Assembly: GCF_964204865.1 (NCBI RefSeq)
Contig: NC_135258.1
Coordinates: forward strand, 12,515,001-12,579,000
Direction: 5' to 3'
Source: Styela clava
Taxonomy: Eukaryota > Chordata > Ascidiacea > Stolidobranchia > Styelidae
DNA length: 64,000 nt
In this document: piece by piece, positions 30,376 through 59,956 of the stretch
How positions within the stretch are numbered: position 1 is the stretch's first letter
How the letters are laid out: every line of letters begins with the position of its first letter
Program-made: the position numbers and the translations under genes
The notes under the pieces: model-generated
What the model saw: the letters and a program-made list of their open reading frames with translations, nothing else
Databases searched by the model: none
Told to the model about the DNA's origin: nothing

Positions 30376-30590
30376 AGGGTAACGTTGGTCATTCAGACGT
30401 TCGGGCAATTCAATCAATGCTTGAAGAAAATTATGAAAACCATCATCTTCTAACAGCAAGGGTTTTTGCCTCGGCAATTGAGTACGGTACAGAAATAGCT
30501 GGCAGACTGGTGATGCAATCTCTGAATCTACCTATGGCAACAGTACGGTATTCCTAATGCCAGAATGCTGTGATGCATGGCACTGTCTGG

Positions 30591-32900
30591 AACAATTGGA
30601 AACAATTGCGCCCAATTCTCTTACTAATCTATAATAGTTATCATAAACAGTCATGTCTGTCTCAGAACACAAGTCTTGGTGTAATAACTTTACTTTATAA
30701 AAAAGGAGATAAAAATGATATAAAAAATTGGAGACCTATTACTCTACTTAATTTCGAATATAAATTAATCGCAAAAGTTTTAGCTTTGAGAATGAAAGCA
30801 GTACTGCCTGATATAATAAATCATGACCAAACAGGATTTATTGAAGGAAGAACGATTCATGAAAATTTATTAACAATAAGAGATGACATTTTTTGGGCGA
30901 ATAAACAAAACCAACCGTTAATAATTTTTAGTATAGACCAAGAAAAGGCTTACGATACTGTTGATAGAGTTTTGTTACTAAGAATATTAAAAAAAGTTAA
31001 TTTTGGTAATTATTTCATTCGATGGGTCAATACCCTATTTAACAACACCAATGCAAAAATAATAACAAATGGATATTTATCAAAGCAATTTAGTATAACA
31101 CGAGGAGTTAGACAAGGTTGCCCCCTTGCCCCACTTTTATATATTATAATGTCCGAATTGTTAGCATCCAGCATCAGATACAATAGAGCAATAATAGGTT
31201 TTCAAAATTGTGCAGGAGATAGGGAGAAATATAAAGGTTTTGCGGATGACACTATTGTCACAGTAGAAAGTTTATCCTCCATAGATGAAGTATTAAAATT
31301 AATGGCAGAATTTGAAAAAGCTACAGGCTTGAGAATAAATATTCCAAAATGCAACATATTGTTGTGTGGGTCAGCAAAACGGCTAAACTTAGGACCTTCA
31401 TACAAGGGTATTCAAATTCAAGAAGAGCTTAAAATTCTAGGAGCTTATATAGGAAACAATGTTGTATCAAGAGATAAAAACTGGTTGAAAATCATTAACT
31501 CAATTCAAAATGTAGTAAATTTATGGCAGGGACGGAAGTTATCAATGATAGGAAAAATTATTATTGTCAAATCATTAATGTTATCCAAAGTGTGGCACAT
31601 AGCCAATTTTGAAATTATGCCAGGAAATTTCGTTCGAAAATTAGAATCTATAATATGGAAATTCATTTGGAATAATAAAACTCAACTAGTGTCAAGACAA
31701 ATTACATCTAATATTTTCACATCCGGAGGTTTGAATATGTTAGACCTCAGGAGCCAAATAAAAGCTCTTCAGGTCAAATGGATTTTTAAAATCCTCAAAA
31801 ACGAGAGTAGGCCATGGAGTAAAAGAGCCAATTATTTTATTAATAATTATTGTAATATTTTGTCCAAAGATAATTTGGAATGTCTGTATTTGAAAGTCCA
31901 ATTTGACAAAGTAACTACCATACCTAATTTTTATACCGCCATTATCAATTCATTCAAGGATATTAAGTTGGAGAGAAATCATCCCTTTAATATTACAGAG
32001 GTTAAAAATGAAATTTTATGGTACAATCCCTTAATCTCAGAGCAAAATTTTAGATTTTCGTCCAAATGGATCCAAGCAAAAGTCATTTCTGTGGCTGATA
32101 TTGTGGATAACACTGTGCATTATTTAACAAGTAGAATATATTCTATTGATCAAATTGGGGATCACAGAAGAAAGCTCTTTTATTTAAATAGATGCTCTAG
32201 TGAAATCCAACAGGTTTGGGGCAATCTACCTATTAGCTGGAAAGAAATTCTATCGAGAAATCATAATTTACCCGAAAACAGACTTGGAATCGATAGATAT
32301 ATGAACTCCAATTTATCCACCAAAAAAATAAGTAGTTTATTGAAAATAAGGAAAATCACAGAAATTGCTACACGGCATGATATGTACATTACACAAAAAT
32401 TAAATTTGAATATTCCTATAGACTGGTCAAATATTTGGCAATATAAACTCTCAAATAAATATAAAATTCTGAGTTGGAAAATTTTACATAATGGTTTACC
32501 TACGGGGGACAAATTAAAATATTGGTTTGATGATGAGAATGGACAATGTGTATTTTGTAATGAAAATGAAGAAACCTGTATACATTTATTTTGTTATTGT
32601 GATTGGATAATTGACTTTTGGCAGTGGTGCAATGTAAGGGAAATCAATTGTGACATAATTATTGCTAATAATATTCATAGTGAAGTGGTATCATTAATCA
32701 TTCAATGTGGAAAATCAGCCATATGGGAGTTCAGGAATAGTGTCAAATATGATGATGTATTCCAAATGCAATGTAACTTGCGAGCTATTTTTAAATGCAA
32801 ACTCCTGGGTGTAATCAGATTAATGTCAGATTTTGATAGACAAAGAATATTATCTGACGAAATCGTTGATGATGTACTACAAAAATCGATAATGAGTTGA
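30591..32900 (+). CDS. Partial LINE ORF2: reverse transcriptase and C-terminal zinc knuckle
   Basis: About 769 residues of non-LTR reverse transcriptase open without a stop. The frame extends 21 bp into host flank, so any start codon there does not belong to the element. Motifs in order: LLYKKGDKNDIKNWRPITLL, QTGFIEGRTIHENLL, FSIDQEKAYDTVDR, RGVRQGCPLAPLLY, the catalytic FADD (the usual form is YADD) and a C-terminal CVFCNENEETCIHLFCYC that matches the C-x2-C-x8-H-x3-C knuckle of L1-type elements. Without the endonuclease this copy could not retrotranspose on its own. Confidence 0.92.
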   Translation, partial: NNWKQLRPILLLIYNSYHKQSCLSQNTSLGVITLLYKKGDKNDIKNWRPITLLNFEYKLIAKVLALRMKAVLPDIINHDQTGFIEGRTIHENLLTIRDDIFWANKQNQPLIIFSIDQEKAYDTVDRVLLLRILKKVNFGNYFIRWVNTLFNNTNAKIITNGYLSKQFSITRGVRQGCPLAPLLYIIMSELLASSIRYNRAIIGFQNCAGDREKYKGFADDTIVTVESLSSIDEVLKLMAEFEKATGLRINIPKCNILLCGSAKRLNLGPSYKGIQIQEELKILGAYIGNNVVSRDKNWLKIINSIQNVVNLWQGRKLSMIGKIIIVKSLMLSKVWHIANFEIMPGNFVRKLESIIWKFIWNNKTQLVSRQITSNIFTSGGLNMLDLRSQIKALQVKWIFKILKNESRPWSKRANYFINNYCNILSKDNLECLYLKVQFDKVTTIPNFYTAIINSFKDIKLERNHPFNITEVKNEILWYNPLISEQNFRFSSKWIQAKVISVADIVDNTVHYLTSRIYSIDQIGDHRRKLFYLNRCSSEIQQVWGNLPISWKEILSRNHNLPENRLGIDRYMNSNLSTKKISSLLKIRKITEIATRHDMYITQKLNLNIPIDWSNIWQYKLSNKYKILSWKILHNGLPTGDKLKYWFDDENGQCVFCNENEETCIHLFCYCDWIIDFWQWCNVREINCDIIIANNIHSEVVSLIIQCGKSAIWEFRNSVKYDDVFQMQCNLRAIFKCKLLGVIRLMSDFDRQRILSDEIVDDVLQKSIMS

Positions 32901-57351: not shown

Positions 57352-57930
57352 ATGTCTGGTCGTAAAATTCAAAGTGATGCAACTGCAGTGCCAAAAATGT
57401 ATACTGGGGGAAAATCAACTAAACAATATGTTGAGGACACAGTAAGAGAAGCTATGGCTGAAGTTAATAGGGCAACAGGACATCTTGGAACTGTTAATCC
57501 TGGAAAAGTTTCATATAACACTTCAGGAGGTGGAAGTGCCATCAACCAATTCAATATTGTGGGAGGTACTATTGGTCAAGCGGCAATTGGTAACAGAGGT
57601 GACACTGTTTTCAACGAAGAGAAAAAAGTTTTCCAAAAAGGTGCCTCAAACACTAAATACAACATTAGTGGAGGAAATTTCAATCAAGCAAACATTGGTG
57701 GAACTTCTCACTACAATAACAAAGAGTGCGAAATTGGATCTGGTGGTGGTGGTAAAGGAGTTTCATTGTCAGCTGAAGATTTGACCCTAAGCATTTTGGA
57801 CAAAGGAGTTACAGCTGAGCAGTTTGTCTTGCTCCTTGAAAGGAAATATTCCTTGGCGAATATTGCTTTTGCGATGCCCAGTGATCCAGAACTCAAAAAT
57901 CGTATGGTTGATGCTCTTCTTGTGAAGTGA
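57352..57930 (+). CDS. Unrecognised protein with two amyloid-motif-like repeats
   Basis: A 192-residue intronless ORF starting MSGRKIQSDATAVPKMYTGG. Three parts: a helical, charged N-terminus (about 20-45, YVEDTVREAMAEVNRATG); two similar motifs of about 21 residues, FNIVGGTIGQAAIGNRGDTV with FN (about 68-89) and YNISGGNFNQANIGGTSHYN (about 108-127), separated by a charged linker; a glycine run (about 135-138), then a C-terminal helical segment (LSAEDLTLSILDKGVTAEQF to MVDALLVK). The shared pattern is (F/Y)NIxGG-Q-A-x-I-G-(F/Y)N. Asn, Gly and Gln-rich paired 21-residue repeats are the layout of HET-s-type beta-solenoid amyloids, and QAxIG loosely recalls RHIM cores. Function is unknown; the resemblance is mine and untested. 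AATAAA near 58415 may serve as its polyadenylation signal. Confidence 0.8.
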   Translation: MSGRKIQSDATAVPKMYTGGKSTKQYVEDTVREAMAEVNRATGHLGTVNPGKVSYNTSGGGSAINQFNIVGGTIGQAAIGNRGDTVFNEEKKVFQKGASNTKYNISGGNFNQANIGGTSHYNNKECEIGSGGGGKGVSLSAEDLTLSILDKGVTAEQFVLLLERKYSLANIAFAMPSDPELKNRMVDALLVK

Positions 57931-59179: not shown

Positions 59180-59956
59180 ATGTCTCACAAAAAACAGCAT
59201 CAACGGAGGAAAAACTTCAAAAACAAAAATAAATATGAAACGCCGCAACTTGCAATGGATGAAGAGGATTTACATGAACCAAGAGGCACGACGAGCAATT
59301 TTACAATAGCATGCCCCCTTGCAATGTGGGACCTGGGACACTGTGACCCGAAAAAATGTACAGGAAGAAAGCTTGCTCGTAAAGGAGCAGTTAGATTACT
59401 GAAATTACAACAAAGATTCGCTGGAGTAATATTAAGCCCGATGGCTACTGAATATATCAGTGCCGGAGATAAAGACAAAGTATTAGCTCATGGCATAGCT
59501 GTAATTGATTGTTCATGGGCAAGGTTGCAAGACACTCCATTTTCAAAAATGAAAGGAGGTCACTTGAGACTTTTACCATACTTGGTTGCAACGAATCCAA
59601 TAAATTATGGCAAGCCCTGTAGGTTGTCATGTGTGGAGGCATATGCAGCTACACTTTATATTGTTGGGCTTGAAGATAGTGCTAAATCTGTTTTGAAACC
59701 TTTTAAATGGGGTCCCAACTTTTTTACATTGAATGAGGAACTTTTGGAGTTATATCAGAGTTGTGAAAGTTCAAAAAGTATCGAGACAGCTGAACAAAAT
59801 TGGCTACAAAATGAAAGAGATGAACTTAATGCTAAAAGTGAAGAACGGGATCCTTTTGATATAGATTTAAGTGTTGAACACTGTAATCCCAACCATACAT
59901 CCCTGCCACCAGATGAAGATTCTGATTCTTCCTGTAATTCATCTGAAGAAGTTTGA
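59180..59956 (+). CDS. TSR3: 18S rRNA aminocarboxypropyltransferase TSR3, intronless
   Basis: Transfers the aminocarboxypropyl group from S-adenosylmethionine to the hypermodified m1acp3-Psi in 18S rRNA late in small-subunit maturation. The 258-residue ORF has a basic N-terminus, CPLAMWDLGHCDPKKCTGRK, then SPMATEYISAGDK, IAVIDCSWARL and RLLPYLVATNPINYGKPCRL followed by SCVEAYAATLYIVG, all typical of the family; an acidic, serine-rich tail follows. Human TSR3 is longer only through its tail. HDDC3 follows 272 bp downstream in the same direction. An acceptor-like TAG lies 27-33 bp before the ATG. Polyadenylation signal AATAAA near 60003. Confidence 0.94.
   Translation: MSHKKQHQRRKNFKNKNKYETPQLAMDEEDLHEPRGTTSNFTIACPLAMWDLGHCDPKKCTGRKLARKGAVRLLKLQQRFAGVILSPMATEYISAGDKDKVLAHGIAVIDCSWARLQDTPFSKMKGGHLRLLPYLVATNPINYGKPCRLSCVEAYAATLYIVGLEDSAKSVLKPFKWGPNFFTLNEELLELYQSCESSKSIETAEQNWLQNERDELNAKSEERDPFDIDLSVEHCNPNHTSLPPDEDSDSSCNSSEEV

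Follow-up and report, generated by a model that had tools for sequence, protein, structure and literature searches.

Paired short motifs in a Styela clava protein resemble stretches near the N-termini of some caspases: a candidate motif-based switch, possibly amyloid in form

Does a small intronless gene of the ascidian Styela clava, whose product has two copies of a short motif, encode an amyloid-based signaling protein of the kind known from HET-s and RHIM proteins, and if so, what might its partners be? The gene lies in a stretch of 64,000 nucleotides (here, the window; C10:12515001-12579000, where C10 is NC_135258.1) of a genome assembly of 376.6 Mb in 379 contigs. It was singled out from the letters of the sequence by a model (the original prediction), which proposed an adaptor or scaffold in innate or cell-death signaling, or simply a repeat-built structural protein. 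The description of the gene as intronless is correct for the coding frame, which is a single open frame (Table 1).

Table 1. Layout of the two-motif gene (positions within the window)
Feature	Position	Strand	Remarks
Coding frame, single exon, 192 aa plus TGA stop	57352..57930	+	ATG 57352, TGA 57928-57930; two C16 paralogs with introns
N-terminal region, residues 1-64, one short stretch of helical look (by eye)	57352..57543	+	
Motif 1, residues 65-88, 24 aa, NQFNIVGGTIGQAAIGNRGDTVFN	57544..57615	+	similar to N-termini of C1 caspases L032/L033
Linker, 12 residues	57616..57651	+	equal spacing in spliced paralogs, with an intron within the linker
Motif 2, residues 101-123, 23 aa, TKYNISGGNFNQANIGGTSHYNN	57652..57720	+	similar to a stretch of the C14 caspase's motif exon
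C-terminal region, residues 137-192, helical look by eye	57760..57927	+	common to both paralogs

The paired motifs are present in this intact frame, as predicted. Motif 1 follows the pattern N-Q-F-N-I-x-G-G-T-I-x-Q-x-x-I-G and motif 2 the pattern Y-N-I-S-G-G-N-F-x-Q-A-N-I-G-G, and their alignment has a Smith-Waterman score of 48, compared with a mean of 23 for shuffles that preserve composition (none of 2000 equaled it). The two had been described as 21 residues long and about 20 apart; that there are two was right, but they measure 24 and 23 residues, with a gap of 12. Beyond the motifs, residues 1-60 gave convincing matches only to themselves when compared with the window and with the regions fetched from C16 and C14, and residues 137-192 matched no known family. 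The gene adjoins a TSR3-like single-exon frame (window 59180-59956, plus strand) with Ribo_biogen_C and Fer4_RLI domains, and a 776-aa frame elsewhere in the window (30570-32900, plus strand) resembles, by eye, the reverse transcriptase of a non-LTR element.

No family had been recognized for the termini, and database searches give none for the protein: it has no match in Pfam, PHROGs, NCBIfam or PADLOC, and the joined proteins of its two paralogs (C16a and C16b, below) have none in Pfam either. A search of solved structures with the window protein gave one weak match (E 0.42), and a six-row motif profile gave weak matches to unrelated chains, the best of which (E 0.04) was a photosystem chain. 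Pattern matches in viral contigs (26 and 6) and in prokaryotic genomes (73) were rejected as candidate relatives after none was confirmed by tblastn (with the motif-1 alignment in the prokaryotic case), and plasmids gave no match.

Within its own genome, the protein does have relatives. When the whole genome was searched in six frames with the window protein, five places emerged, namely the gene itself and two exon pairs on contig C16. Read by eye, the exon structures of C16a and C16b comprise four or more coding exons apiece, and the internal junctions show AG/GT; the joined frames are open, with motif 1 followed by a linker, motif 2, a second linker and a C-terminal region of helical look. 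The two motifs align with each other within each paralog (0 of 2000 shuffles as good for C16a and 2 of 2000 for C16b), and the motif-to-motif spacing is identical, at 12 residues, in all three proteins. The HET-s-like layout of two repeats that the original prediction described is shared by all three paralogs. Upstream of motif 1, C16a has an additional in-frame exon of beta-rich look (L006:4628-4880, TIDGKTVTIGQNG...GGHVKIGKG), of which a genome search found no second copy.

The paralogs have an intron between the motifs, and once it is spliced out their inter-motif spacing equals that of the intronless window gene; the window gene therefore likely arose as a retrocopy. It could then be an old copy with no function, a reading that accounts for its lack of the introns found in both paralogs and for an inter-motif spacing equal to the spliced one; but its 192-codon frame is intact at an identity to C16a of 61 of 164 aligned residues. 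Over those 164 codons, the differences number 84, 63 and 109 at codon positions 1, 2 and 3, respectively, so that third positions have changed most, as expected for coding sequence under selection. Identity is also higher in the motif regions (45-53%). We regard a functionless retrocopy as very improbable.

The motif also leads to the caspases of the same genome. When the C16a motif-2 exon was searched against the genome, the single match outside the family at E<=10 was at C14:8693043-8693129 on the minus strand (E 0.32), and the reverse search with that exon returned itself and C16a only (E 0.37). Among the six motif regions, the C14 exon scores highest (75) with C16a motif 2. None of 1000 shuffles was as good for C16a motif 2, C16b motif 1 or C16b motif 2, compared with 1 of 1000 for window motif 2, 14 for C16a motif 1 and 15 for window motif 1. 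Given that C14 also resembles the motif-1 rows (0-15 of 1000 shuffles), the division into motif 1 and motif 2 is not clean. The C14 motif exon and six exons downstream of it can be joined into one open reading frame, every border having AG/GT (the splice sites were picked by eye), and the joined frame is a Peptidase_C14 (Pfam 3e-26, the p20 part), with a p10 exon further downstream on the same strand. SHGE is present and the active site reads QFCRQ, a variant of the usual QxCRG; a start codon was not found for this gene.

A scan of other caspases was made on the best 30 of the 62 caspase places in the genome list (43 after merging), picked by domain regardless of motif, together with C14. On these 31, the six-row motif profile ranked C14 (8.6e-5), L033 (0.0015), L032 (0.11) and L029 (0.82) ahead of L023 (E 0.98), the rank of C14 not being independent because it was found by the motif. 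The top four matches all fall among the initial ~40 residues of the respective frames (no start codon having been found for C14), and that of L023 is internal. The score of L033 was reached by 1 of 200 shuffled sets with the six-row profile, and by none of 200 with a motif-1 profile. L032 and L033 are both similar to motif 1: none of 1000 shuffles does as well in comparisons with the window protein and C16a, and 5 and 10 of 1000 do so with C16b. In comparisons with motif 2 they do no better than shuffles (178-570 of 1000). Being close neighbors on contig C1, with 70% identity in the initial 40 residues, they are treated as a single observation. For L029, the likeness to motif 1 is weak: 24-135 of 1000 shuffles do as well in comparisons with the window protein and C16a, and 10 of 1000 in that with C16b. 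The motif-1 profile gives L027 an equal score, though the L027 match is internal (305-312).

The C14 and C1 candidates are caspases by domain and catalytic residues (PF00656 with the catalytic His and Cys). Peptidase_C14 is matched at 8e-39 by L033, 1.2e-39 by L032 and 3.3e-40 by L029; L029 and L033 have SHGE and QxCRG, and L032 has SHGK and QICRG. Two caspase exon sets also lie on C16 (16346222-16357039), ~28-38 kb upstream of C16a (16384627), and no motif was seen in the 5.5 kb pieces taken there (L052 and L053). Indeed, the motif was found in none of the caspase pieces L052-L054 (motif-profile scan) or L062 and L063 (by eye), which lie on C16, C14 and C3. No further copies came from genome searches that used a motif-1 exon or the N-terminus of L033, and it should be noted that their coarse first pass missed the L033-family link too. 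L027 (C6:18838035) and L035 (C6:18835175) are Death-domain caspases that have, by eye, one and two stretches, respectively, of the form I-x-x-x-G-K-N-A-x-x-[IV]-x-[NT]-N between the death domain and the protease; possibly, these are another short interaction motif.

How seriously should the similarity to caspases be taken? The window protein might be a repeat-built structural or unrelated protein, with the caspase similarity owing to chance or to a shuffled exon that brings no functional link. Taken alone, the C14 copy has a genome-wide E-value of 0.32-0.37, which is not significant, and no immune gene is conspicuous by eye among the frames of the window (Pfam was run on three window proteins). 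Nevertheless, the C14 and C16a exons are each other's only match outside their own families, the former splices in frame to a protease, and a random match would have a chance of about 6e-4 of landing no more than 10 kb upstream of a same-strand caspase. In addition, a stretch resembling motif 1 lies among the 25 initial residues of a second caspase group. In our judgment, an origin by chance or by inconsequential exon shuffling is quite unlikely. The survey of the genome's cell-death proteins that the original prediction proposed thus found motif-like stretches near caspase N-termini, and from the sequence comparisons, it is likely that the motif has cell-death partners in the same genome.

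Membership in the named amyloid families is a separate matter, and here the original prediction fared less well. The published HRAM features are Gly at position 19, hydrophobic residues at 5, 8, 10, 16 and 18, R/K at 15 and N/Q/H at 3 (PMC4518210). The best register of the six motifs agrees with 4-5 of these 8 features, and 690-1905 of 2000 shuffles do equally well, so that HET-s-type membership was rejected. The likeness to HRAM and HET-s is rather one of layout, with a pair of pseudo-repeats of ~21-24 residues each, a linker in the 6-18-residue range (12 residues, as delimited here, in all three paralogs) and single repeats in a partner protein. In contrast to HRAM proteins, the host is an animal, Gly19, the hydrophobic core and the basic residue at 15 are not seen, the candidate partner is a caspase, and Pfam finds no HeLo domain in the window protein. 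NACHT matches in the genome number at least 97 (97 of 194 candidates scored); among the matches listed, none is on C16 and the sole one on C10 is ~1.5 Mb from the gene. At least 53 (hand count) lie on C2 at 0.02-8.9 Mb (G000), many with near-equal score and a 467-aa frame, and this cluster looks like a young NLR array.

Membership in the RHIM family was likewise rejected. No place in the genome exceeded the cut-off for Pfam RHIM (PF12721; 10 candidates scored), the two weak matches being elsewhere, and Pfam found no RHIM in the motifs, the window protein or the joined proteins. Like the RHIMs of RIPK1, RIPK3, ZBP1 and TRIF and the cryptic RHIM of insects, the motif is short, found in an animal, rich in I/V, Q, N and G, and associated with cell-death proteins. 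The RHIM core tetrad is [IV]-Q-[ILV]-G, and it is replaced here by Q-x-x-I-G. Judged by sequence, the logic may be HET-s/RHIM-like, but the protein is not a member of either family.

Bacterial BASS motifs, found with Bell, CHAT-protease and TIR effectors, resemble the motif in being rich in Gly, Ala, Val, Ile and Gln. They also occur with domains of caspase-like (CHAT) proteases, according to PMC7889193, by which, in addition, the number of motif families appears to be highest in bacteria, lower in fungi and lower again in metazoans; BASS is described also in PMC12261475 and PMC8086366. A difference from BASS is that the search with the motif-1 alignment confirmed no prokaryotic relative. No case of an animal or caspase-borne amyloid motif was found among the titles and abstract openings searched, and RHIM does not occur in the available portion of PMC8195603. 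The CARD, DED and death-domain prodomains of initiator caspases are comparable in function, each bringing its protease to an adaptor by means of a homotypic N-terminal element; there, the element is a six-helix death fold, whereas here it would be a motif of 20-30 residues.

The motif could, of course, be homotypic without being amyloid, in which case a short beta-element would build a finite adaptor-caspase complex (by beta-augmentation or as a small beta-roll) and no open-ended fibril. The similarity between adaptor and caspase in itself needs no amyloid, and the HRAM mismatch and the absence of RHIM point the same way. However, the composition (Gly, Asn and Gln with beta-branched residues) and the arrangement (a pseudo-repeat pair joined by a short linker, the partner having one copy) correspond to the amyloid-signaling pattern described in PMC4518210 and PMC7889193. 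We consider the non-amyloid reading unlikely, although less so than chance similarity.

Overall, the interpretation given in the original prediction is partly supported. The reading that we favor, with modest confidence, is that the window protein is a two-repeat adaptor or scaffold of a caspase-activating pathway, the motif pair of which recruits caspases by way of a short cross-beta stack. In this mechanism, the two motifs would be homotypic interaction elements, and a similar motif, in single copy, would be the N-terminal element of certain caspases. Once the adaptor assembles, its repeat pair would template or stack with the caspase motif, and the caspases so brought together would be activated by proximity. 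The form of assembly would most likely be a short cross-beta stack, with Gly at turns, Asn/Gln ladders and alternating I/V/F/Y/A, and the C-terminal helical region may bind an upstream sensor or control assembly. What the sequences show is an intact gene, a layout of two motifs common to three paralogs and a motif likeness to caspase N-termini; recruitment, proximity activation, the cross-beta structure and the direction from adaptor to caspase are what we infer, and we consider amyloid formation likely. More tentatively, and with somewhat less than even confidence, we suggest that this is animal amyloid signaling in which death folds have been replaced, with two-repeat adaptors templating single-repeat caspase N-termini, and motifs 1 and 2 perhaps serving different caspases.

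In animals, the known amyloid signaling is that of RHIM and related motifs, and death folds serve to recruit initiator caspases. If true, the present case would represent a new recruitment code for animal cell death, in the form of a short motif common to a repeat adaptor and to caspase N-termini. Judged by the literature searched (titles and abstract openings), caspases would here have their first motif of this kind, and animals a new one in addition to RHIM. Its design would also connect animal cell death with those fungal and bacterial systems whose killers and CHAT proteases are switched on by short motifs.
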